Below, piece after piece: positions 3,036 to 19,531 of a stretch of 64,000 nt of DNA. The DNA is from Sulfurovum sp. (GTDB lineage Bacteria; Campylobacterota; Campylobacteria; Campylobacterales; Sulfurovaceae): NCBI GenBank assembly GCA_030949725.1, contig JAUZSE010000024.1, positions 33,960-97,959 of the forward strand. Reading direction: 5' to 3'. Positions within the stretch are counted from its first letter, which is position 1; each line of letters starts with the position of its first letter. The translations under genes and the position numbers were made by a program. The notes beneath the pieces are model-generated. The model had not been told where the DNA came from, made no database searches, and worked only from the letters and a program-made list of their open reading frames with translations.

Positions 3036-4697
3036 CTAGTATGAAGGGTCGTATGCGACCAATTCACCTTTTTTTAGCCTTGGCAGTATATCCATTTTTA
3101 TCTTTTTAAGCAAAAACATTTTTTTGTCCATAGACATATTTTCATCTCTTGGTATGGCTTGCAACTGTTGCCTGTAGTGTATAGTAAGCATGTTTAACAG
3201 TGTTTTATTTAAACTTTTTTCATCTAGCACTTTGATGCCCTCATCAATACTCAAACCCACCAAACTAGGGTTGTCAAGCTCTCCTCTTAGCAAAATAGAA
3301 AATAATTCTGCATACTCTTTGAACAATGAAGCATCCATAACGCTGAGTACGTTGTCGATGTATTGAGGGAATTCTATGAGCGTTTTTAGTATGCACAAAA
3401 GTTCAGTGTTGTCTTTTTTTTGCGTAAAATTGTCTCTTGCGTGTTCAGGTCTGCTTTCTTTCCCAAAAAAAGCAGGAGAAAGCCCAATCAGGGTCGCTGC
3501 CACAGGAATATATGCATCTTTAATGATGGGACTTAACGCATCCATATATTGTTTTACTGTACCAAAAGCCACTTCTTTTTCTCTAGGGTCATGCAGATCA
3601 TACCTAGATACAATTTTCTCCAATACAAAAGGGATGAGTGGTTTGGCTTCACGTAGTAACTTTGCCACTGCTTCACTTTGCCCTTTGGCTATGAGATCTG
3701 CAGGATCTTGTCCATCAGGAAACAGCACGACTCCCCCATCAAATCCAGCCACAGATAACATTTGCGAAGCTTTGAGTGCCGCTGCGACCCCTGCTTTGTC
3801 ACCATCATACGCAAGGATGACTTTAGGGTCTCCTTTTCTAAGCATAGGTAAGTGTTCGGTCGTCAAGGCTGTTCCCATCCCTGCTACTGCTTCTTTAAAA
3901 CCTGCTTGATGAAACATCACTACATCAAGATACCCTTCACAAATAATGATCTTTTTGTTTTTATAGATGCTCTCTTTCGCCAAATGGTATCCGTATAGAA
4001 GACGAGACTTGTTAAAGAGTTTTGTTTGGGGTGAGTTGATGTACTTCGCAGGATGATTACTAATGGTTCTACCACCAAACCCCACCAACGATGCAGAAGG
4101 AGAATAGATAGGAAAGGTAATACGCTCCACCAAACGGGCATAATACCCCTCCCCATTTTCACTCGCTGCGATAATACCTGCTTCTGCTGCTTTGGGCAAA
4201 GGAAGCAATGCAGCTTTGCAAGAAGTGCATTACCTGCTTGTCCCTGTTGGCACATACCCTATCTCAAAGTTTTCAATCGAATTTTGAGAAATACCCCTTT
4301 GGAGTAGATATTGTGTGGCTGTGGTATTTTGATTAAGATTTTTAACATACCACTGACTGATGGCTTCAAGTACTCTTTTGGCATCAGAATAATCAGAACT
4401 ACCTTTGGTGTAAGTCAGCGAAAAGTTATTCATGGAGGCGAGTTTTTCTATGGATTCTGGGTAAGAAAGTTTTTCCAACTCCATCACAAATTTAATGCTG
4501 TCTCCTCCTACACCACAGCCAAAACAATGGTATATCTGCTTGGAAGGACTTACCACAAAAGATGGGGTTTTTTCTCCATGGAAAGGACAATTTGCTTTAT
4601 AATTTGCACCTGCTTTACGCAACTCTATAAAGTTACCTATTACATCTATTATATCTATACTGCTTTTAAGGGATTCTATTGAGGCGTTATCTATCAT
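3036..4697 (-). CDS. dnaG: DNA primase DnaG, interrupted by paired frameshifts
   Basis: Makes RNA primers at the replication fork. The N-terminal CHC2 zinc finger (CPFH...YHCFGCGVGGD) is followed by the TOPRIM catalytic core (IICEGYLDVVMFHQAG, with VILAYDGDKAG carrying the metal-binding DxD) and a helical C-terminal helicase-binding region. Reading stops after GYVPTGTSR at about 4230 and resumes in the same frame at LLPLPKAAEAG (4208). Between them another frame encodes QVMHFLQSC, so one base is missing near 4238 and one is extra near 4210, two compensating indels in about 30 bp. Restored length is about 554 residues. An essential gene broken this way points to sequence error. Confidence 0.9.
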
Positions 4698-4740: not shown

Positions 4741-5379
4741 TTGGAACAGATATTACCTGCTTATGATGACCCACTTTTTAGTATTGTACTTATTATTGTT
4801 ATTGGTCTTATTGTGGCACTGGTTACTTATGGTTGGGGGGTGTATCGAGAACAAAAAGAAGAGGGAAAGCTCCTCAACTTTTTGGAGAAGTTTGACAGCT
4901 CCGAATGCACATTAAACACAGCCGATATGCCCTATGAGCCCAATATGCTCAAACCTCTCACCCTCTTGGCAAAAGCCTTTGAAAATTCTGGAGAATACCA
5001 TAAGTCTATTGACCTCTATCTCTACCTCATCAAACATGTTTCCCAAGACCAAGGAGAACTTGAACTGATGGAACGCTTAGGAAACACCTACCTTCATGCA
5101 GGGTTTCTAGCACGTTCAAAATCCATTTATACAGAGATATTACGTAAAAAGCCACGCAATGTCAAAGTGCTTTATGAACTCGGTGTCGTGTATGAGACCA
5201 TGCAAAAGTATGAGAAAGCAAAAGAAGTACTCGAACCTCTAACAATGCTAGGAGAAGAAACCGCTTCACTTGAAAAGTTTCTTGACTTTTTGCTCCTACT
5301 CTCCAACAACACATTGTCTATAGAGACTAAAGTACTTCAATTAAAAGAGATTTTAGAACAAAGAACCCAACATGTATAG
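4741..5379 (+). CDS. Membrane-anchored TPR protein, N-terminal part of a LapB-like protein
   Basis: Starts at TTG with a good Shine-Dalgarno. One N-terminal transmembrane segment (FSIVLIIVIGLIVALVTYGWGV) leads into TPR repeats (SGEYHKSIDLYLYLIK, ERLGNTYLHAGFLARSKSIY, VLYELGVVYETMQKYEKAK). That order, a single anchor followed by TPRs, is that of LapB/YciM, which ends in a rubredoxin-like zinc knuckle. The zinc knuckle is found here in the next ORF, overlapping by 8 bp in another frame. Dropping one A from the AAA before ACCCAAC would join the two as EQEPNMYRQVV. Likely one protein of about 350 residues; LapB's role in LPS control is known for other proteobacteria, not shown here. Confidence 0.7.
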   Translation: MEQILPAYDDPLFSIVLIIVIGLIVALVTYGWGVYREQKEEGKLLNFLEKFDSSECTLNTADMPYEPNMLKPLTLLAKAFENSGEYHKSIDLYLYLIKHVSQDQGELELMERLGNTYLHAGFLARSKSIYTEILRKKPRNVKVLYELGVVYETMQKYEKAKEVLEPLTMLGEETASLEKFLDFLLLLSNNTLSIETKVLQLKEILEQRTQHV

Positions 5380-5785
5380 GCAGGTTGTGAGCGCACTCTT
5401 ACACCTTGATACCAAAAGTGCTTGGGAGAGCATCGATACTACACGCATCAAAGAGCTGATTGACATCCTGTGGTTCTTACCAAATTCACAACTTGATTTA
5501 GATATAATTCACTCAAATAAACAGCTCAAAACGCTATACTATGCAAAAGGCTATCTCCAAGAAGCTAGCGTTGGAAGTGGTATCTTTAGTCTGGACATGT
5601 TAGCCACTGCAAGACAAAATAGATTTGAAGAGGGAGACCTTTCTTTCTCTTATCTTTGTCAAAAATGTAAACAGAGTTTTCCTGTTTCTTTTAAGCGATG
5701 TCCAAATTGTATGGCATTAAATTCTGTTAAAGTTGAGGAAACCATTGCAAAATCAAGTCCACAAACAGATTACTCTTTACTCTGA
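5372..5785 (+). CDS. Zinc-knuckle C-terminal part of the LapB-like protein
   Basis: 137 residues, mostly helical, ending in YLCQKCKQSFPVSFKRCPNC, a CxxC...CPxC rubredoxin-type metal site as at the C-terminus of LapB. The ORF opens at ATG inside the last codons of the preceding TPR ORF and has no Shine-Dalgarno of its own that stands out. It is therefore either the translationally coupled second half or, more probably, the continuation of one gene split by a single-base indel near 5360-5372. The helices between would be further TPRs. Confidence 0.65.
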   Translation: MYRQVVSALLHLDTKSAWESIDTTRIKELIDILWFLPNSQLDLDIIHSNKQLKTLYYAKGYLQEASVGSGIFSLDMLATARQNRFEEGDLSFSYLCQKCKQSFPVSFKRCPNCMALNSVKVEETIAKSSPQTDYSLL

Positions 5786-8926: not shown

Positions 8927-9479
8927 CTAATCCTCTAACCCTTTGACCCTAAATGTCTTACGGTGAATAGGACATCTACCATACTTCACTAAAGCCTCCA
9001 TATGGGCTTTAGTCCCATACCCCTTATGTCTCTCAAATCCATACGCTGGATACAACTTAGCCATCTCCACTATCTCTCTATCATGTGTTACCTTAGCCAA
9101 TATACTCGCCGCAGAAACTTCTGCTATTTTAGTATCTGCCTTCACCATAGTGCCAATATTTTCCACCCCAAAAGTACTATTGCCATCAAACAAAGTACTC
9201 CACATCAGGTAAATGTTTTTTAATCTCTTCTAACCCATTAGTGTAAACACTTAGAAATACCCAGTTCATCTACTTCTTGTGCAGAAAAAGAGACGATATA
9301 ATAATCAGAATTTTCTACTGATCAAGAGGATACAAAGCTTCACGCTTCTTCTCCGTTAGTTTCTTAGAATCCATAAGTCCCCTTACATGGGCTTTTTAAG
9401 TACCACACCAGCTATCACCAAAGAACCCGCCAGAGGTCCTCTTCCTGCTTCGTCTATGCCGCAAAGTTGTTTATTCATT
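8927..9479 (-). pseudogene. rnhB: Ribonuclease HII, broken by several frameshifts
   Basis: RNase HII removes ribonucleotides from DNA and RNA from hybrids. The N-terminus (ATG at 9477-9479) reads [18 protein letters not shown] with the catalytic DEAGRG, then LMDSKKLTEKKREAL in a second frame, ENSDYYIVSFSAQEVDELG in a third, GLEEIKKHLPDVEYF, and finally FDGN...VKADTKIAEVSAASILAKV through RHKGYGTKAHMEAL. At least four indels lie between 9190 and 9420. That density is higher than elsewhere in the window, so this may be a true pseudogene. It ends convergent with the DUF945 gene, with the stops adjacent at 8926/8927. Confidence 0.85.
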
Positions 9480-9506: not shown

Positions 9507-9532
9507 GGTGTTGTGGGGACACAATACCCTAC
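9507..9532 (-). repeat. REP hairpin, minus orientation, copy 1
   Basis: Minus-strand GTAG followed by a degenerate 9-bp stem and a TCCC loop; one stem position is mutated (acaatacc instead of acaacacc). First of four REPs in the 300-bp gene-free stretch between rnhB and the HNH gene. Confidence 0.8.
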
Positions 9533-9573
9533 AACCCTCATGTCTTCAAATTAAATCTGCACGCAAATCAACC

Positions 9574-9599
9574 GTAGGGTGTTGTCTTCCGACAACACC
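9574..9599 (+). repeat. REP hairpin, plus orientation, copy 2
   Basis: GTAG, then stem GGTGTTGTC / GACAACACC with loop TTCC. Followed by a 55-bp spacer and an inverted REP, the layout of a REPIN, although this spacer diverges from those around the RAYT gene. Confidence 0.88.
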
Positions 9600-9654
9600 G
9601 ATAAATCCAAACGTTTACAATCTATATTTACCTTCTATCCCATCCTAAGCATTT

Positions 9655-9680
9655 GGTGTTGTGAGGACACAACACCCTAC
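9655..9680 (-). repeat. REP hairpin, minus orientation, copy 3
   Basis: Inverted partner of copy 2. On the minus strand it reads GTAG, stem GGTGTTGTG / CACAACACC, loop TCCT. The base pair next to the loop is G-C rather than the C-G of plus-orientation copies. Confidence 0.88.
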
Positions 9681-9726
9681 GTAGATTTTCATGTATTTTA
9701 TACATCTATCTCAACACATGGCTTCT

Positions 9727-9752
9727 GTAGGGTGTTGTCTCCCGACAACACC
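9727..9752 (+). repeat. REP hairpin, plus orientation, copy 4
   Basis: GTAG, stem GGTGTTGTC / GACAACACC, loop TCCC: matches the consensus exactly. It lies 34 bp from the 3' end of the HNH gene and could act as its 3' stabiliser or terminator-like structure. Confidence 0.88.
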
Positions 9753-9785
9753 AAGAATGCAAACGTTTATGAAATTATAAATCCT

Positions 9786-10520
9786 TCATAATAATCCTAA
9801 TTCTTGTGAAATATCTTTGATGAGTTTTGAGAGTGGGCGCTTTCCTATCTCATCATCACTAATGTATCCACCTAAAACAAGTCGTTGTAAATCTTCCTTG
9901 TTTTTAAAAAGTGTTCCTTCGTATTGTGTCATAAGTTCATCTAGGTAGCTTTCATTGTAAATAGCATTTTTTTGTATGAGTTCAAGTACGATGTCTTTGT
10001 GATTATCGTAAAGTTGTTTCAAATTAAATACTTCTATAGATTTTTCTGCTTGTTTATCTTCCGTATTTATATCAATTTGAAAACCTTTTAAAGAATGGTA
10101 AAAAGAAGAATCCTTTATCTTCAAATCAAATTTTGCCTTATTATCAAAACTTTCATAGTAAGGATGTAATATATCTACTTTTTTAGATGATTTTCTTTGA
10201 TTACATGTTGAACAAGATGGTATTAGATTGTATAAACAAATAGCTAAGTAAGGATAAGTAGATTTATCAAAAAAGTGGTCAAGTTGGGCAGTCGCATTCT
10301 CTTGATTATTTTTTGTAAAATTAAAAATATAATTTCTATTACAATATAAACAAGAAGATACTCCTATTTTTTTAATAAAATCTGCTTTTTTTAATCGTGA
10401 GTAGAGTGTAAAAAAATAATCTTTTTCAATTGTAGAAAGTTGAGTATATATTTTATTTGCGTCTATAAAAAGAATCATCTTTTTTATATAGTTATTATCA
10501 GATAGAATAAGTTTCTCTAA
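9786..10520 (-). pseudogene. HNH nuclease of a Septu-like pair, C-terminal part cut off by an IS
   Basis: Carries a CxxC...HNH-type zinc nuclease core: SSCLYCNRNYIF, then AQLDHFFDKSTYPYLAICLYNLIPSC, then STCNQRKSSKK. This resembles PtuB-type HNH nucleases encoded beside an SMC/ABC-like ATPase; the family is assigned by pattern, not by search. An ATG at 10478 opens a 230-residue ORF, but the coding frame continues upstream as LEKLILSDNNYIKK to the IS border. Without the IS and one TTA copy, it joins in frame to the part at 11797-11979, for about 305 residues. Four REP hairpins follow it. Confidence 0.75.
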
Positions 10521-11796
10521 GGACTAAAACATAAATAAAACCAAATTACTAGTACTTTTTAGGAATAGCAACATAATTCCAAAGTGGTAAATGTATATCA
10601 AAGATAATTTTCATATTCTCTTTAAAGCCCTCTGCATATTTTCTTTTTGTATGAAATACCTTATCAAGAATAGAACTAAAAACTTTCAATCCTGTAGTCG
10701 TTTTAGTTTGTGCAATAAGGGTATTTACTAACTCTACACTTGTAAAAATGACTCCTTGTAAAGCTCTTGTGATATGAGGGAATAGGCGATGTTCTATAGG
10801 ATTATACTTTGATGTATAAGGAGGATAATGAGCAATACGAATTTCAATTTGTAATTCCTCTGATAACTTCTGTAAATCTTCTTTAAAAATATAGTGACGA
10901 GAGCTATTACTGCCCCCACCATCGCACAGTAGTAGCAGTTTATCATGTCCTTGATATTCAATATATCCATAATTTAACCACCAATTTTTGATAGATTCAC
11001 AAGCAAATTCACTGGTATCAGCACTTGTCCCTATGGTAATATAACCAATATTTAGGTTTATATCATACAGCCCATAGGGACAATTTTTCCCTCTGCGTAA
11101 GAAGGAAAATCATGGTCTTTAACTTTAATTATCTCTTGAGTATACAGTTTACCTTCTCGGTATAAATTTCCTAAAAACTCTTTTTTTACATCCATACTCA
11201 AAACAGGATTCCCCTCTTTCTTATATTCTTCTTTTAGTTTTTCAATATTTTTAAATTGCTCATCTCTATTTGCAACATCTACTTTTCCTGAAAGTGTTTT
11301 AAATGCTTGTCGCTTACGAAAATGATGTTTTTTAAGAGTTGTTTCACTATATCCACATCAACTACAAAACCTTTCTCTGACAATCTAGTTTGTAGCTCTT
11401 TCCGTGATAAATTTGTCCACTTTATCGTCTCATCCATCGGTGAACCTGCTGTACTCTCTGCGATAACCTCTAGGAATGCTTCGTCTAAGCCTTCTCTTGT
11501 GAGCAATATAGACTTTCTTCCTCCTCCCTCTTCTCTTTGTCTTTTATTATCTTTATCTAATTCTGTTCTTAACTCTTTTTGTCCTCTTGACACACCACTA
11601 TAGTCACATTCAAAGATTTCGCATATATAGCTTATCCCTCCATGACTTAATTTGGTTGCTTCTATTCCTGCGTAGCGTCTTCTGTCTTTCTCTGATAAAC
11701 TTTTATATAGATTTAGCATTTGCTCTTCTATTTCTTTTGGGTACTTTTTCATAAATAGTATTTTAGCTTATTTTGGGTTTGTTTATCTTGTTGTCC
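10521..11796 (-). mobile_element. ISAzo13-like insertion sequence inside the HNH gene
   Basis: 1276 bp, bounded by imperfect terminal inverted repeats of about 30 bp. Read inward, both ends start GGAC and match at about 24 of 30 positions (GGACTAAAACATAAATAAAA against GGACAACAAGATAAACAAAC). The 3-bp direct repeat TAA/TTA flanks it at 10518-10520 and 11797-11799. It carries one transposase gene on the minus strand. Removing the element and one repeat copy restores an open HNH reading frame, so the borders are well supported. A solo copy of one end is found at 58146-58181. Confidence 0.88.
10549..11752 (-). CDS. ISAzo13-family transposase, two frameshifts
   Basis: N-terminal helical DNA-binding part (EKDRRRYAGIEATKLSHGGISYICEIF, with KSILLTREGLDEAFLEVI) followed by the catalytic region: NPVLSMDVKKEFLGNLY with the first acidic residue, then KLLLLCDGGGSNSSRHYIFKEDL, IRIAHYPPYTSKYNPIEHRLFPHI, and a C-terminus ending WNYVAIPKKY. 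Breaks are near 11325 (an A6 run) and near 11090 (CCTATGGG for expected CCTTATGGG). Restored length is about 400 residues. Without correction the transposase would be inactive. Confidence 0.85.
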
Positions 11797-11979
11797 TAAG
11801 TTAATATTTTCATCAAATTTCTTTAATTTTTTTTGAAGTAAATTATTTATATCTTTTTTAGAAATATTAAAAATAGTTTTCTTGTCTTTTTTCTTTTCAA
11901 GTTTTCCATTTTTAAAAATATTATCTATCTGTTGAGTAAAATGTTGTTCTATCTCTTTTGTAATATTAATTTTTATCAT
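11797..11979 (-). pseudogene. HNH nuclease of a Septu-like pair, N-terminal part
   Basis: Starts MIKINITKEIEQHF at 11979, overlapping the end of the ATPase gene by 14 bp, which shows ATPase and HNH were one transcription unit. The lysine-rich frame runs to KKLKKFDENINL at the IS border, then into IS sequence for 16 residues before stopping at 11749. Its continuation is EKLILSDNNYIKK at 10517 and below. Confidence 0.75.
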
Positions 11980-13629
11980 TTTTCAACTTTTCTAACTCTT
12001 CTTGTAATGCTTTAATATCTTTTTCTATAGTATCAATTTTATCTACTTTTTTCAGTCGCTTACTATCTAACATCCGTTGAAGCTGATTTTTAACAATAGG
12101 TTCACCGATAATAGAAATAATTTGCTCACAATATTTTAAATCTTCTTTTGATAATTTATCTTGATTTAACAGTTTAATAGCTTTGTCTATTTTTCCTTTA
12201 GCAAACTCTCCCATAAGCCCATCTTCCATAAAGAAACTATCACTTAGAAGTGTATGGATATTTGCTCCGAAGGTTTGTTTTTTCTCTTTTAATCCATCTA
12301 CTACTTTGCAATTTCCTTTTTCATTTTTGTCTAAAAAAATAATGTTTTGTTTTGGGATGTCGGATAGGAGGAATGGGGAATGGGTGGTGAAGATTAGATT
12401 AATTTTTTTTGTTTCAAAAATTTTATTACTAGAGAAGAATAAACGAAAAAGATTAATTATTTTCTTTTGCCATTCAGGATGTAAATATATATCGGGTTCA
12501 TCTAGTAAAATATAAAAAGTTTTTTGATTTTCAGTTACATATAATTTTCTAATTGTATAAAAAATATTTGCAAAAAGTAGAATTAGTTTTCTTTCTCCAT
12601 TACTTAAATTATTAAGATAAAGATTTTTTCTTCTTGTTTTTTTAAAAAATCTTATATTAAAAAAATGCCTATGAAGATTGGATAAAAGTTTTTCTAAATT
12701 TTTATTATTTATATCAATAATTAACTTATCGAGACTATAATCATATATCGACTGTATATTTCCAAAACTTTTTATTATATCGTGAAAAATTTCCTCATTT
12801 ATATCAAAAAGATTTTCTAGTTTTCTCTGAAAAAAACTGTCAACATCATCAAAATGCTGAAACTTATTGTGCTTAATTATAGTCTCAGCAATTTCGTAAG
12901 CACTAGAATGATTATTGTTTAATTTATAAATGAACTCCCTTAAATATAAATAGTTTTTAACATCTTCAATTTCATCACTAAATCTACTTAACTTATTCTC
13001 AAGAAATATTTTAAGATTCTCAATATCTTGAGAATCAATAGTAAATATTTCCCTTATATCCAACATATCATTTGGAAACTCAAATCGCCTATGCATCAAA
13101 TTTTTAAAATCATTATCTTTTAATTTGACTATTGTTTCTAGTTCAATATGTGTTGGAATAAATTTAAAATTCTTTAAAAACTCTTGATTGTTATTAAATA
13201 AAAAACTAACTGAAATATTATTAAAAACATATTTACTATCAATTTTTAATTTATTACTCACTTGTTTGTTCATATTAAATTCATTTAGATAGCTCTCGCT
13301 CTCAATATCTTCATCATATAATAAAATTACATTACTATCAAAGAAATTATCTTTACATATTTCTTGACAGCTTGAATCAAAAAAAGCTATAAGAATTATC
13401 TTTATTTGTTAGAGCTTGTAAAACACTACTCTTCCCACTCCCATTTTTCCCAACAATAGCCGTCACATTAATATTATCACCAAAAAAAGTTTTCTATGTA
13501 GTCTTTATTTTCATCAATAGTCAGTTCTTTCTTCTCATCATCAAACTCACAATCAAACCGAGGAGAAAAGTTAAACCCCTGCTTATGTATATTTTTATAA
13601 TTCTCAACCCACAAATAAACTAGTTCCAA
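11966..13629 (-). CDS. SMC/ABC-type ATPase of a Septu-like (PtuA-type) pair, two frameshifts
   Basis: Start placed at TTG 13629 after AAGGGGAA; the protein begins ELVYLWVENYKNIHKQGF, a RecF/OLD-like opening. Walker A is AIVGKNGSGKSSVLQAL, the ABC signature is NLSNGERKLI, Walker B is YILLDEPDIYLHPEWQ, and a switch-like TTHSPFLLSDI follows; the C-terminus is a coiled coil. Two seven-base homopolymers (13482-13488 and 13379-13385) each need one base fewer to keep frame, otherwise only a 435-residue piece without Walker A is left. Total about 555 residues. Such ATPases paired with HNH nucleases act in phage defence; here that is inference. Confidence 0.72.
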
Positions 13630-13674
13630 CTTTTCCCCTTAACTATGTTATTAAATATATTATATCCAATTACC

Positions 13675-13700
13675 GTAGGGTGTTGTCTCCTGACAACACC
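13675..13700 (+). repeat. REP hairpin, plus orientation, upstream of the RAYT gene
   Basis: GTAG, stem GGTGTTGTC / GACAACACC, loop TCCT. With the inverted copy at 13754 it encloses a 53-bp spacer containing ACAACATACAAAACAAACC, nearly the same as the spacer in the unit at 14312-14416. Confidence 0.9.
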
Positions 13701-13753
13701 AATATATACAACATACAAAACAAACCAGAATTTTATTGTAAATAATGTCTCAT

Positions 13754-13779
13754 GGTGTTGTGGGGACACAACACCCTAC
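13754..13779 (-). repeat. REP hairpin, minus orientation, upstream of the RAYT gene
   Basis: Minus-strand GTAG, stem GGTGTTGTG / CACAACACC, loop TCCC. Closes the REPIN begun at 13675, 20 bp before the RAYT promoter. Confidence 0.9.
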
Positions 13780-13798
13780 AGATATAAAATGTGACAAT

Positions 13799-13827
13799 TT
13801 GACATATTTTTACTCCAAGATTAAATA
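13799..13827 (+). promoter_or_regulatory. Candidate promoter of the RAYT gene
   Basis: TTGACA at 13799-13804 and TAAATA at 13822-13827 with 17-bp spacing, 18 bp before the ATG at 13845. The TTGACATATTTTT stretch also occurs as one arm of the palindromes at 16409 and 50858. Confidence 0.45.
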
Positions 13828-13844
13828 TTGTGATAACATAAACC

Positions 13845-14315
13845 ATGTCTAATTATAAAAGAATTTTTAAAGATGGCTATAGCTATTTTATCACTATCGT
13901 TACACAAGGAAGAAACCCTATACTTATAGAATGTATCGACCAATTACGCTACAGCTTTGCGTTAAGTAAAAAGAAATATGCTTATACGATAGATGCCATC
14001 ATCATTTTACCAGACCATATTCATATGATTATTACACCTAAAAATTCAAATGAATACCCTAAAATAATTTCACATATTAAACGAAGTTTTGTCTACGGAC
14101 TTGATGGTCATTATAAAGATAACGCTAAAATGACCTTAAGTACATCTTCCTACAATCGTAAACTCTCAGGTATTTGGCAGAAAAGATTTTATGAGCACAC
14201 CATACGAGATGAAAAAGATTGGTTAGAAAAGATACAATACATTCAACACAATGCCGTTAAGCATATGTTAGTTGACGATTGGAATGACTGGCAATATTCA
14301 TCCTTTGTTCCGTAG
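13845..14315 (+). CDS. REP-associated tyrosine transposase (RAYT)
   Basis: Y1-type HUH single-strand transposase, 156 residues. The HUH motif is LPDHIHMII (His58, His60) and the probable nucleophile is Tyr132 in EKIQYIQHNAVKHM, a placement and sequence typical of RAYTs (COG1943-like). WQKRFYEHTIRDEKDW is also family-typical. The gene is intact and lies between REP pairs, its expected substrates: RAYTs bind and cut at the GTAG beside REP hairpins. The TAG stop at 14313-14315 is itself part of the GTAG of the next REP. It may have spread the ten REPs of this island. Confidence 0.93.
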   Translation: MSNYKRIFKDGYSYFITIVTQGRNPILIECIDQLRYSFALSKKKYAYTIDAIIILPDHIHMIITPKNSNEYPKIISHIKRSFVYGLDGHYKDNAKMTLSTSSYNRKLSGIWQKRFYEHTIRDEKDWLEKIQYIQHNAVKHMLVDDWNDWQYSSFVP

Positions 14316-14337
14316 GGTGTTGTCTCCCGACAACACC
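14312..14337 (+). repeat. REP hairpin overlapping the RAYT stop codon
   Basis: GTAG, stem GGTGTTGTC / GACAACACC, loop TCCC. The TAG within GTAG ends the transposase gene. A 53-bp spacer leads to the inverted copy at 14391. Confidence 0.92.
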
Positions 14338-14390
14338 GATATATCCAACATACAAAACAAACCAGAATTTTATTCTAAATCATACCCTTT

Positions 14391-14416
14391 GGTGTTGTGA
14401 GGACACAACACCCTAC
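14391..14416 (-). repeat. REP hairpin, minus orientation, downstream of the RAYT gene
   Basis: Minus-strand GTAG, stem GGTGTTGTG / CACAACACC, loop TCCT. Second half of the REPIN at 14312-14416. Confidence 0.9.
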
Positions 14417-14456
14417 CCATTTATTTTCCAAACAAACTTTTATTTCACATCCAACC

Positions 14457-14482
14457 GTAGGGTGTTGTCGGGAGACAACACC
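14457..14482 (+). repeat. REP hairpin with flipped loop
   Basis: GTAG, stem GGTGTTGTC / GACAACACC, but loop GGGA instead of TCCC: the hairpin is the reverse complement of the consensus while the GTAG keeps its place. A 53-bp spacer (with CCAACATACAAAACAAATC) follows. Confidence 0.9.
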
Positions 14483-14535
14483 GATCTTCCCAACATACAA
14501 AACAAATCAAAACCTTATTCTAAATCATGTCTTTT

Positions 14536-14561
14536 GGTGTTGTGAGGACACAACACCCTAC
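14536..14561 (-). repeat. REP hairpin, minus orientation, last copy
   Basis: Minus-strand GTAG, stem GGTGTTGTG / CACAACACC, loop TCCT. Ends 30 bp before the 3' end of recQ. The 276 bp between RAYT and recQ consist of these two REPINs only. Confidence 0.9.
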
Positions 14562-14591
14562 GCTAAAAACTACAAAGTAGTGATTGTTATA

Positions 14592-16373
14592 TTACCCATC
14601 ACATAACACATCCAAAAACGCCTTCCCATACCTCTCAAATTTTACTTCACCTATACCATGTATCGCTAACATCTCTACTTTATCTTGGGGCTGTTTGTTG
14701 CTCAAATCTTTTAAAGTCTTATCTGAAAATACAATGTACGGAGGTATGCCTTTTGCCGAGGCTATTTGTGTCCGTAGATTCCGTAACTTATCATACATAT
14801 CTACATCATAATCATCAAAATAGGTCACTTTCTTTTTACTCTCTGCTTTTTGTACCGTGAGTCTCTCTTTTTTGAGGTCAATCGTATGTGCACCTTTGAT
14901 GACTTCTACACCAAAGTTTGTCAATTTGTAGACTTTAAATTCACCTATCTCCACGGCGTTTAACTCTAAAAGTTTATCTCCTATCGTCAGCCATTGATTT
15001 TTAGAGTATTCATTTCCTATATCGTAGACTGAAAGACTATCATGTCCATTTTGCAACACTCTTTGCTCTTTACTCCCTTTGAGTATATCTATCACATAAT
15101 GCAAACCAAAATTCTGTTCTGTTCTAAGTATGGCAGAGAGTAACATACGTGCAGGAGTAGTGATGTCTACCTTTTCACTATCAGGGGCAGTACAGTTATC
15201 ACATTTACTCCCACAAGCTTCTATACGGTCATCAAAATAAGCCGCCACACTTTGATGTCTACAGTTCTCCGAATTTGCAAAACGTATCATGCTATCAAGC
15301 TTGTTGAATGCATGTTGTTTATAAGGTGTTTCGGGGAGATCTTCTATGAAGCTTTTTTGTTGCACGATGTCTTGAGCCGAAAAAAGTAACAAAGTTTCAG
15401 ACTCCACACCGTCTCTTCCTGCCCGTCCTATCTCCTGATAAAAATTCTCTAGGGTTTTTGGCATGGTCATATGCACGACAAAACGGATGTTAGACTTGTC
15501 TATCCCCATCCCAAAAGCTATAGTAGCCACCACAATCTGCACTCTGTCCGCCACAAAATCTGCATAGGTTTTGTTTTTCTCTTCTGTAGGAAGTCCTGCA
15601 TGATATGCCTTAGCTTCGATGCCTTTGGTCTGCAAAAAATGGGCTATTGCTTCTGTAGATTTACGAGAAAGTGTATATATGATGCCCGATTCATCTCTAT
15701 GCAATTTTAAAAACTCTATAAGTTGGGCGCGTCCATCTTTGATGCGGTGTCTTGCATGGATCATCAAGTTTTCACGAAACAAAGACCCTCTTACCCTTTT
15801 TGGTGTTTGCAGACCTAAATTAGAAGCAATATCACTTTCCACCGCATGCGTAGCAGTCGCAGTAAAAGCAGTAATCGCTGTACTGGGGAACTGTTCTTTG
15901 AGCAAAGAAAGCCGTCTGTAGTTTTCTCTAAATTCATGTCCCCATTCACTCACGCAGTGTGCTTCATCTATGACAAAGAAGTTGATAGGTAGTTGATGCA
16001 AGAGATTTAGAAAATACGCATTGGTCAAACGTTCAGGTGCAACATAAAGCAACTTTATATCGCCACGACGTAGCTGCCTTTCTATCTCCTGACTCTCTTC
16101 AAGTGTTTGCATAGAAGAAAGCATCGCCGCAGAAATGTCATTTTCCCTAAGGGCTACTACTTGATCATGCATAAGTGCCAGTAAAGGAGAGACAACTATG
16201 GTAACACCATCCATAAGAAGTGTAGGGAGTTGATAGCAAAGTGATTTCCCTCCGCCCGTAGGAAGTATCATCAATACATCTTGCTTCTCCAAGATAGCAT
16301 CCACGACATCTTCTTGCAAAGGTCTAAAAGTGCTGTGTCCAAAATAGTGTTCAAGGGTTTCTAATTTATTCAT
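14592..16373 (-). CDS. recQ: ATP-dependent DNA helicase RecQ
   Basis: 3'-5' helicase for recombination and fork repair. Order: SF2 helicase core with Walker A LPTGGGKSLCYQLP, DEAH box FVIDEAHCVSEWGHEFR, TAFTATAT (motif III), IIYTLSRK (motif IV), VATIAFGMGIDKSNIRFVVH and QEIGRAGRDG (motifs V, VI); then the RecQ-C zinc site (CRH...CGSKCDNC), winged helix, and a C-terminal HRDC domain ending HGIGEVKFERYGKAFL. 593 residues, complete and in frame. A strong palindrome lies 36-62 bp upstream. Confidence 0.96.
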   Translation of the reverse strand: MNKLETLEHYFGHSTFRPLQEDVVDAILEKQDVLMILPTGGGKSLCYQLPTLLMDGVTIVVSPLLALMHDQVVALRENDISAAMLSSMQTLEESQEIERQLRRGDIKLLYVAPERLTNAYFLNLLHQLPINFFVIDEAHCVSEWGHEFRENYRRLSLLKEQFPSTAITAFTATATHAVESDIASNLGLQTPKRVRGSLFRENLMIHARHRIKDGRAQLIEFLKLHRDESGIIYTLSRKSTEAIAHFLQTKGIEAKAYHAGLPTEEKNKTYADFVADRVQIVVATIAFGMGIDKSNIRFVVHMTMPKTLENFYQEIGRAGRDGVESETLLLFSAQDIVQQKSFIEDLPETPYKQHAFNKLDSMIRFANSENCRHQSVAAYFDDRIEACGSKCDNCTAPDSEKVDITTPARMLLSAILRTEQNFGLHYVIDILKGSKEQRVLQNGHDSLSVYDIGNEYSKNQWLTIGDKLLELNAVEIGEFKVYKLTNFGVEVIKGAHTIDLKKERLTVQKAESKKKVTYFDDYDVDMYDKLRNLRTQIASAKGIPPYIVFSDKTLKDLSNKQPQDKVEMLAIHGIGEVKFERYGKAFLDVLCDG

Positions 16374-17840: not shown

Positions 17841-18640
17841 TTATCCAAATCTACCAGTGATATATTCTTCTGTCAATTTTACAGAAGGGTTCACAAAAAT
17901 TTTCTCTGTTTTATCAAATTCTATAATATCTCCCAGATACATAAATGTCGTATAGTCACTCAAACGACTTGCCTGCTGCATATTGTGTGTCACAATGACC
18001 ACCGTAATATCTTTTTTAGCTCAGTAATCAACTCCTCAATCGCCCCTGTGGAGATAGGATCAAGTGCAGATGTTGGTTCATCAAAAAGTAATACTTCAGG
18101 TTTTAAAGCCACCGAACGTGCGATACAAAGACGCTGTTGTTGTCCACCACTCAAACCTAAGGCAGAGTCTTTTAGACGGTCTTTTGCCTCTTTCCAAATC
18201 GCAGCATCTTTGAGTGCTTTTTCCACACGCCCGTCTAGTTCAGACTTATTTTTAAGACCTGCAAGTCTAAGACCATACGCGACATTGTCATAAATACTCA
18301 TCGGGAAAGGTGTAGGCTTTTGGAAGATCATTCCCACACGTTGTCTCAACCCTATCAATTCATTTTCTGTTTTAAGCTTAAGAAGATTTTCCATTTCCCC
18401 TGTTTTAGGATTAAGAAGATTTATCTTTCCTCCATATTCGCACCCTGGGTAGAGATCATGTATACGGTTCATCGCTCTAAGTAGCGTTGACTTACCACAT
18501 CCACTAGGACCAATCATTGCCGTAATTTTGTTTTTATGTATGGTAAGATTGTTCTTTTTGAGTGTAGGTTCAGGTGACCCAGGATAGGTAAAGAAAAGGT
18601 CTTTTACTTCCATAACTGCTTTAAAATCTTCTTGTTGCAT
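17841..18640 (-). CDS. pstB: Phosphate ABC transporter ATPase PstB, homopolymer frameshift
   Basis: Walker [20 protein letters not shown]-loop [13 protein letters not shown], signature [16 protein letters not shown] and Walker [16 protein letters not shown]. The frame fails at an A6 run near 18012 ([16 protein letters not shown]); with seven A it reads [24 protein letters not shown] through the H-switch to a TAA at 17841. Start chosen at [12 protein letters not shown] (18640), preceded by AAGGAAG; a longer frame to 18694 only translates an intergenic hairpin. Restored length about 266 residues, normal for PstB. Confidence 0.92.
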
Positions 18641-18656
18641 ACGCTTCCTTTTATTA

Positions 18657-18713
18657 GGGGAGTCAGGCACCAACGATACATCACGCTGTGACATATCATT
18701 GAAGCCAGACCCC
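18657..18713. repeat. Long imperfect hairpin between pstA and pstB
   Basis: Outer arms GGGG...CCCC, with GTCAGGC against GCCAGAC, and inner arms CAACGATACATCAC against GTGACATATCATTG around GCT. With G-U pairs the minus-strand transcript forms a stem of about 26 bp with few mismatches. It fills the pstA-pstB gap and could be an mRNA processing or stabilising site, or a dispersed repeat. Confidence 0.6.
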
Positions 18714-18719
18714 TATTTT

Positions 18720-19531
18720 TTATTTTTTATGTCTTGTAACATATCGACCTACCAGATTAATGAAAAGTACAATCGCAGTCAATACAAATGCTGCTGACCA
18801 AGCAAGTTGTCTGCTGGCTTCATCTGGGTATGTTGCTAAGTTGTAAATACTTACAGTCAATGAGGGGAACTGATCAGTCAAATCCATACTAAAGAACTGG
18901 TTGTTCGCCGAAGTAAAAAGTAAAGGTGCTGTTTCACCGATGATACGTGCAAAAGAGAGTAGATATCCCTGTCGTAACCCCCACTTTAGCAGCTTTGAGT
19001 ACAATCTGTAGTATCACCTGCTTTTTACTACCACCCAATGCAATACCCGCTTCACGCAATTCTTTAGGCACCAAAGCCAACATGTTATCTGTCGTTCCTA
19101 TGATAATTGGAATCATCATAATAGCTAGAGCAACCACACCTGCCCAGCCATTAAAACTCCCAAAAGGTTCAACAAAAAGGGCAAATACAAATACACCAAT
19201 AACAATGGAAGGTGCAGAAGTCATGACATCAGAAAGGTTTCTAATGACCGAGGTCATTTTACTCTCCTCTCCATACTCACGCAGATAGATACCTGCAAGT
19301 ACTCCTATAGGTACTGCGACTGCCGTTGCCATAAGTGCCATAGTAAATTGTCCTACTAAGAGATTTCGTATACCACCTTCTACCAAGATCTTTCGTAAAG
19401 AGTGAGAAACTCAACCCTGCCATACCCTTATAGGTAAGTGTGATCAGAATCCAAAGAAGAAACCCTATACCGATGACCGCAGAGAGTGTAGAGAGAAACA
19501 AAACCACTTTATTGAGTATAAGTCTGTTCAT
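18720..19531 (-). CDS. pstA: Phosphate ABC transporter permease PstA, two frameshifts
   Basis: Three overlapping frames make one permease: MNRLILNKVVLFLSTLSAVIGIGFLLWIL (first membrane helix), then VEGGIRNLLVGQFTMALMATAVAVPIGVL to the permease loop ELREAGIALGGSKKQVILQIVL (EAA motif), then YLLSFARIIGETAPLLFTS to the C-terminus. Indels are near 19390 and near 18970, where GGGATAT should be GGATAT to give TTGYLLSFARIIGE. About 270 residues when joined. The start overlaps the pstC stop (TAATG). Confidence 0.9.

Follow-up and report, generated by a model that had tools for sequence, protein, structure and literature searches.

RAYT genes (REP-associated tyrosine transposases) and the repetitive extragenic palindromic (REP) sequences that surround them, often paired as REPINs (REP doublets forming hairpins), are known together as REPtrons, and why bacteria keep them is debated. 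According to the extracts available of the published accounts, the Escherichia coli homologue processes single-stranded REP sequence in vitro (PMC8266576), there is little evidence of a benefit from RAYT and REPIN retention (PMC8049555), and it has been speculated that REPINs incorporating host-beneficial DNA would gain an advantage (PMC3116915). GTAG repeats of Sulfurovum sp. NBC37-1 and of epsilon-proteobacteria are already listed in the extract of PMC3733652, so that a Campylobacterota version of these systems, which a first-pass annotation of the present DNA had held to be of interest, is not a novelty. Here we describe a RAYT gene and its REPINs in a 64-kb stretch of a Sulfurovum sp. genome (the window, 64,000 nucleotides of contig JAUZSE010000024.1), where they lie between an rnhB remnant and recQ and surround a PDC-M62 pair of ATPase and HNH genes. 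The favored reading, to which we give a probability of roughly 55%, is that the RAYT and its own REPIN family in the rnhB–recQ gap frame a predicted defense cassette that was likely exchanged repeatedly while the frame stayed in place. Defense cassettes that turn over within the frames of several RAYT families of one genus would provide a concrete, testable case for the debate on RAYT retention.

The position of the gap is conserved over the genus loci fetched, with AroC–rnhB on one side and recQ–phoB on the other; rnhB, which encodes RNase HII, is decayed in the window, and its frame is mostly open in relatives. The order rnhB–REP–M62–REP–RAYT–REP–recQ recurs in the window and in the genomes G024, G052, G015 (on two contigs), and G049, the last with a broken RAYT and degenerate REPs on the rnhB side. 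A RAYT of the same type (TTGT) occupies six gaps, these five, which hold both PDC-M62A and PDC-M62B, and that of G057, where the RAYT and REPINs surround a 92-bp M62 remnant. This remnant scored above all 300 shuffles against three of four M62A 5' regions (best 62 versus 34) and two of five M62B ends (best 49 versus 38), and not above shuffles against the remaining M62A and M62B ends, the window's own among them. Among resolved gaps, M62 or its remnant is thus present in all six with the RAYT and in one of 22 without it (Fisher p 1.9e-5). G032, G008, and G022 were excluded from this count; G008 is cut at the REPINs, and G032 has REPINs and, where its contig stops, what looks by eye like the end of M62B. 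On the tree, the four supported independent pairs nearly always agree in the association of RAYT and M62, although with only four pairs a sign test (p 0.125) cannot reach 0.05.

The gaps without the RAYT vary widely in content. Six are nearly empty, their aligned parts lying about 10 bp apart (G041, G072, G003, G027, G044, and G035), and three hold repeats: one REPIN relic in G050, one CTGT REPIN in G014, and, by eye, a degenerate REP in G055. Others contain a pair of methyltransferases and an Mrr_N protein (G066), McrBC (G056 and, by likeness seen by eye, G013), HipA together with a protein that fits a type IV restriction profile (G042), or a protein of the PDC-S70 type (G045). The rnhB–recQ gap is a defense hotspot in the genus, and it is marked as a place to seek new systems.

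Comparison of the slot genomes separates the cassette from its surroundings. Protein identity is 79–94% for RecQ, 84–93% for AroC, and 73–88% for the RAYT, and 31–45% for M62A and 30–84% for M62B; related species keep the frame around very different cassettes, so the cassette was probably exchanged on many occasions. A single clade of slot alleles was rejected for both M62A (p 1.1e-7) and M62B (p 3.7e-5), and vertical M62 inheritance in the slot was rejected with it. Of the M62A proteins compared, the nearest to the window's is encoded at another place in G028 (68%), and the nearest to that of G024 at another place in G062 (65%). M62A and M62B often have different nearest relatives, so that the cassettes look mosaic; between G015 and G049, for example, M62B is 84% identical (RecQ 82%) and M62A 45%. 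The RAYT is itself not strictly vertical, that of G015 being 88% identical to the protein of G052 and 83% to that of G024, with RecQ at 88% and 94%, respectively.

A second locus shows a similar arrangement with other genes. The sister species G050 and G024 share a RAYT (151 of 152 residues identical) that has TGCA-type REPs, and its flanks are collinear (left, 3.2 kb at 95.6%; right, several kb at 92–94%). Between the REP groups lie a PtuA-like ATPase (E 1e-31) and SoFic (E 1.9e-91) in G050, and IetA (E 1e-78) and IetS (E 4e-48) in G024. The two cassettes have no nucleotide match at 1e-3, and by tblastx they share only two stretches of 31 codons, both weak matches close to the right end. About 440 bp from the left REPs inward are common to both, so the left junction is inside the frame and not at a REP; on the right side of G050, homology resumes 15 bp before a REP. 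A 74-residue piece left of the cassettes has no PADLOC match. Beside another RAYT of G024, a type IIG enzyme (E 1.5e-256) lies between REPs of one family, whose distances from its stop and start are 18 and 94 bp (L154), and beside a RAYT of G053 a type III restriction system lies between GGGGCGAT REPINs. A REP-bracket scan covered 36 RAYT loci, or 30 sites once the slot loci and the G050/G024 pair were joined. At seven of the 30, REPs of the same family recur on the far side of a segment at least about 1 kb long; four of these segments are defense-type, and the others encode a pentapeptide protein, a PP-loop protein, and one that has no Pfam match.

A simple mechanism would account for the favored reading. 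By analogy with its homologues, the RAYT would cut single-stranded REP hairpins at GTAG, spreading and renewing REPINs; the near-identical REPINs, together with the conserved core flanks, would then offer the homology by which incoming DNA replaces the interior, so that exchange at REPINs or flanks is the probable mover of cassettes. The M62 pair is predicted to protect against phage wherever a species has it intact, and cassettes would be kept for that defense. Alternatively, the RAYT might itself move the cassette, cutting the framing REPs at GTAG and carrying the single-stranded interior like an IS605-type passenger. The REP–cassette–REP–RAYT–REP geometry resembles, from general knowledge, that of IS200/IS605 elements with a passenger, the predicted catalytic residues are conserved, and the homology that resumes just before a REP on the right side of G050 would fit. 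We nevertheless consider it very unlikely: no TTGT REP was found in a strict search of the other M62 loci fetched from the genus and of one from another genus (L135–L147 and L149), where a single REPIN, of another type and on one side, was seen, and the second-locus frame encloses the remnant of an older cassette. That REPIN, of CGGT type, stands at an M62 pair of G028 (L139), about 20 bp from M62B, with no RAYT in the fetched 16 kb; the only trace of a RAYT among the same loci is a weak piece at the edge of L138 (E 2e-6).

It is also possible, if doubtful, that this is an ordinary REPtron in a defense hotspot, with the gap acquiring defense genes by general means and the REPINs as bystanders to the turnover. 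A number of observations weigh against exchange within a REPIN frame, and several of them fit such a bystander role. Restriction, McrBC, and toxin–antitoxin genes occupy RAYT-less gaps, with no REP there by strict search, so the frame is unnecessary for use of the hotspot. An HsdM piece (E 5e-10) inside the second-locus frame of G024 suggests, from its sequence, an earlier type I system, and junctions are therefore not all at REPs. Two-gene RAYT neighborhoods were not shown to be richer in defense proteins than those of a second Y1 transposase class of the genus (see below): in PADLOC searches at 1e-10, 124 neighboring open reading frames (ORFs) of the 36 RAYT loci matched 267 families and 66 neighbors of 18 second-class loci matched 26. 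No enrichment is claimed from these figures because matched families cannot be equated with proteins (a single restriction protein hit 57–108 families at 1e-5), the counts do not single out the matching member, and the control also has candidates (e.g., L207). A PADLOC-matching neighbor occurs at three of the 23 unbracketed sites (L128, L133, and L187); the resulting comparison, 4/7 versus 3/23 (p 0.033), was framed post hoc, with neighbors not all scanned singly and many flanks ending early. The RAYT-less exception in the gap count, G058, has an M62A fragment beside recQ at a contig end, its rnhB side not seen. Class-wide, M62A had a match in 56 of 397 genomes, and 27 of the 30 loci checked have no RAYT within 1.5 kb; the other three are slot loci, all in the rnhB–recQ gap, so M62 does not require the frame, and a constant class-wide partnership of RAYT and M62 is thereby ruled out. 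RAYTs of the same REP type also occur at two loci with other neighborhoods and no rnhB or recQ in the DNA covered (L065 and L070). Among the 66 genus genomes in which no cognate RAYT was found, the median number of perfect REPs is 0, yet 10 carry at least 14. Finally, the cassette of the window is interrupted by an insertion sequence (IS) while the RAYT frame is intact. A bystander role, in turn, sits poorly with the co-occurrence of RAYT and M62 in the gap (6/6 versus 1/22) and with the four RAYT sites of different REP families that have same-family REPs on either side of a defense system.

Even less credence is given to a retron-like coupling, in which the RAYT would bind or make REP hairpin DNA that restrains a PtuAB-like M62 effector, or binding of RAYT to REPs would control the M62A promoter. 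Consistent with it, M62A and M62B match the NCBIfam retron-Ec78 PtuA and retron HNH models weakly, below cut-off (PtuA, 47.5 of 500 bits). A REPIN separates the divergent M62A and RAYT genes, and TATAAT stands 11 bp from the REP before M62A in G024, G052, G015, and G049, which makes a regulatory link to M62A possible. In contig DYMA01000202.1 (L098), a RAYT of another clade and two near-identical REPINs lie between an M62A end, recognized by eye, and M62B (PADLOC E 5e-44). This is a second, independent RAYT–M62 neighborhood, and a REPtron placed between M62A and M62B would suit a coupling of this kind. The 27 of 30 M62A loci without a nearby RAYT argue against it, and in the window the nearest REP is turned round.

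The RAYT gene was correctly annotated as intact: its open frame matches NF047646 at 138.6 bits (cut-off 80). In a profile search of the window's own genome (1.77 Mb, 25 contigs, 69.6% complete) it was the one match over the cut-off, a single copy for its REP type and not IS-like, and its match to NF033573 (IS200/IS605) is below cut-off (28.5 of 55 bits). Alignment with its only solved relative, 4ER8 (E 2.9e-17), pairs DHIH with EHMH, WQ....EH..R with its counterpart, and YIQHN with YIYIN, so that the HUH motif, the catalytic tyrosine with an asparagine four residues on, and W-Q-E-H-R are all conserved; the roles of the motif, the tyrosine, and the GTAG-contact residues are taken from the available parts of PMC6006769 and PMC8266576. 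GTAG-tagged hairpins flank the gene on both sides. It had been placed inside the last two of the three REP groups; it sits between groups 2 and 3, and only its stop codon, the TAG of the GTAG at 14312–14315, falls in the first REP of group 3, as do the ORF ends in G024, G052, G015, G057, and G008. The GTAG of a REP likewise provides the stop codon of an upstream ORF at two other loci of the same genome (L003 and L027). Of the 33 RAYT loci searched for the motif TGACAATTTGACATATTTTT, 25 have it with at most three mismatches, compared with 40 of 6600 windows from the same loci; it precedes most starts by about 33 nt and occurs in several RAYT clades. At L187, L174, and L078, REP copies lie inside RAYT genes with the frame unbroken, as is known for subclass 2.4 (PMC6006769, in extract). 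The second Y1 class (L197–L214) is common in the genus, with open frames of about 173–222 residues and NF047646 scores of about 92–107 bits; a strict search found no GTAG REPs within 1.2 kb of the 18 loci fetched.

All ten 26-bp GTAG hairpins reported in the initial annotation are present, four at 9507–9752, two at 13675–13779, and four at 14312–14561. Each consists of GTAG, a 9-bp stem, and a 4-nt loop, perfect in nine; a pattern search of the whole window (GT[AG]G with a perfect stem, 8 bp or longer) returned exactly nine elements, every one in this locus. The near-constant 53-bp spacer holds exactly in REPINs B, C, and D (Table 1), and its constancy is only local: these three are mutual copies, the other two matching the first at 80% and 88% over 114 bp, the fourth has a spacer of 55 bp, and the five REPINs elsewhere in the genome have spacers of 21–56 bp. 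In the flipped core of REPIN D the loop reads CGGGAG. In eight of the nine genome REPINs whose GTAG tags face outward, the ninth stem pair is C-G in one arm and G-C in the other (manual count), and pairing is thus kept while the bases changed.

Each RAYT in a tree of 40 is adjoined by its own stem, GGTGTTGT for the closest RAYTs and, among others, GGTGCTGT, GGTGCGTT, GGTGTGCA, GGGGCGAT, GTCGGGGT, and GTTTGGCA for more distant ones. Two duplicates were dropped from the tree, and the broken G049 and G042 RAYTs and the unlabeled L194 were left out; stems were labeled by eye with near variants merged, giving 18 labels. Stem type changes 17 times on the tree, the minimum possible for 18 labels, against an average of 30.5 in shuffles (0 of 200 as low), and REP stem type thus follows the RAYT tree. 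That the hairpins are merely terminators or structural repeats, unrelated to the RAYT, is therefore given almost no weight, even though some REPs touch gene ends and, in G024, the REP that follows the RAYT is overlapped by two terminator-like matches on the opposite strand. Also against it, a consensus scan of window positions 13560–14620 found no terminator-like site (0.4 expected) and eight promoter-like sites (5.7 expected, sd 2.1); at the G024 locus it found three (0.6 expected) and eight (4.3 expected, sd 1.8), respectively. No conclusion is drawn from the comparison of these counts with expectation.

The repeats are dispersed, as a full-genome search for the hairpin and spacer revealed. 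At up to three mismatches, the genome gave 55 strand matches and the reversed control pattern none, ruling out chance hairpins; these resolve by manual count into about 33 distinct REPs, 10 at the locus and 23 on ten other contigs, which also rules out a repeat confined to the locus. Nine REPINs are present, four at the locus and five elsewhere. Within one mismatch, 42 of 120 relatives, all of this genus, carry the TTGT pattern, and perfect copies are present in 37 of 73 genus genomes. In the seven genomes where recQ adjoins a cognate RAYT (broken in G049), perfect REPs number 14–66, with a median of 27, significantly above the median of 0 in those without (one-sided p 3e-5). Hairpins at similar frequency in relatives lacking the RAYT, the result named at the outset as speaking against a RAYT/REP system, were thus found in part: the median is lower, but 10 of the 66 genomes are REP-rich. 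Of these, G041 (26 copies), G055 (32), and G066 (26) are 97–99% complete, and some others 74–88%. They are not taken as a refutation because REP type tracks the RAYT tree, RAYT-bearing genomes are richer, and E. coli offers a parallel: its genomes without a RAYT still retain REPINs, in lower number, according to the extract of PMC8049555. The repeats outlive the RAYT gene, as in that account. Decay of REPs after RAYT loss was also considered and rejected, ratios of perfect to near-perfect copies failing to separate the groups (19/19 in G067 without a RAYT, 14/24 in G015 with one).

In the window itself the cassette is damaged. The bracketed ATPase–HNH operon of the first-pass annotation stands as a defense-type pair that recurs in other species (PDC-M62 by PADLOC, E 4.4e-68 and 6.7e-71, adjacent genes); the operon is not intact, because an ISAzo13-type element interrupts M62B and the M62A frame is broken. 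In G024, M62A and M62B are adjacent with open frames (PADLOC). Frame changes or stops at high identity also occur in dnaG, an ORF adjoining it, pstB, and pstA (3675–4697, 4741–5773, and 17844–19531), and these may be assembly errors or recent mutations; some frame breaks of the cassette may accordingly be assembly errors, which the IS insertion is not.

Table 1. Features of the rnhB–recQ gap and its borders (positions in the window).
Feature	Position	Strand	Basis or remark
rnhB remnant	8930..9472	-	56% identity, six stops; left slot border
REP 1, group 1	9507..9532	-	pattern search; one mismatch
REPIN A	9574..9680		REP 9574-9599 (+), REP 9655-9680 (-); 55-bp spacer
REP 4	9727..9752	+	33 bp from M62B stop
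PDC-M62B (HNH), C-terminal part	9786..10478	-	230 aa; PDLC04743 E 6.7e-71, profile 109-324 of 328
Decayed ISAzo13-type element within M62B	10500..11757	-	limits by eye; transposase piece 11279-11752, NF033519 E 7.7e-31, below cut-off
Likely M62B N-terminal part severed by IS	11749..11979	-	by eye from sequence
PDC-M62A ATPase, frame-broken	11966..13629	-	PADLOC; ORF 11966-13273, N-terminal pieces 13407-13493 and 13483-13629
REPIN B	13675..13779		REP 13675-13700 (+), REP 13754-13779 (-); 53-bp spacer
20-nt motif TGACAATTTGACATATTTTT	13792..13811	+	33 nt before RAYT start
RAYT (TnpA-REP), intact frame	13845..14315	+	156 aa; NF047646; HUH motif, catalytic Tyr, W-Q-E-H-R aligned with 4ER8
REPIN C	14312..14416		REP 14312-14337 (+; GTAG supplies RAYT stop), REP 14391-14416 (-); 53-bp spacer
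REPIN D	14457..14561		REP 14457-14482 (+, core flipped), REP 14536-14561 (-); 53-bp spacer
recQ	14592..16373	-	right slot border

More broadly, RAYT/REPIN units in Sulfurovum could be dedicated immunity carriers, REPIN docking frames that capture and exchange defense cassettes, with the cassette making a selfish family worth keeping. We regard this extension as unlikely; if true, it would explain the persistence of domesticated RAYTs.

RAYT/REPIN systems, GTAG REPs in Sulfurovum, and defense hotspots are known kinds, and what is new is the repeated REPIN frame around exchanged defense cassettes. No description of REPIN-framed defense cassettes was found in the titles and abstract openings of the papers listed for RAYT/REPIN, Sulfurovum, restriction–modification, and phage-defense topics, subscription literature being mostly outside this scope. 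The Septu (PtuAB) and retron-Ec78 effectors share an ATPase and HNH pair, of which M62A and M62B are remote PtuA and PtuB matches, a likeness in the manner of working only; PDC-M62 is a separate PADLOC candidate family, and no reverse transcriptase was seen among the ORFs of the locus. With IS200/IS605 elements the locus has in common a Y1 HUH transposase and terminal hairpins, but the family profile is matched below cut-off and there is no evidence of the unit moving whole. Sulfurovum sp. NBC37-1 shares the genus name, GTAG-tagged REPs, and tyrosine transposases; the extract of PMC3733652 mentions no defense genes, and the likeness rests on the GTAG tag. The REPtrons of E. coli, Pseudomonas, Stenotrophomonas, and Marinomonas are closest, with an HUH-Tyr transposase of REP type, GTAG palindromes on both sides, dispersed REPINs, and one RAYT per REP type. 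Here the GTAG-contact residues are as in E. coli group 2 (PMC8266576, in extract), yet the palindromes are perfect, with no bulge, and the REPINs also frame a defense-type cassette. Core defense hotspots such as cDHS1 and cDHS2 of Pseudomonas aeruginosa likewise hold changing immune cassettes between conserved core genes; in contrast to these, as far as the extract of PMC10250203 describes them, several species here have the cassette enclosed in an inner frame made up of a RAYT and its REPINs.

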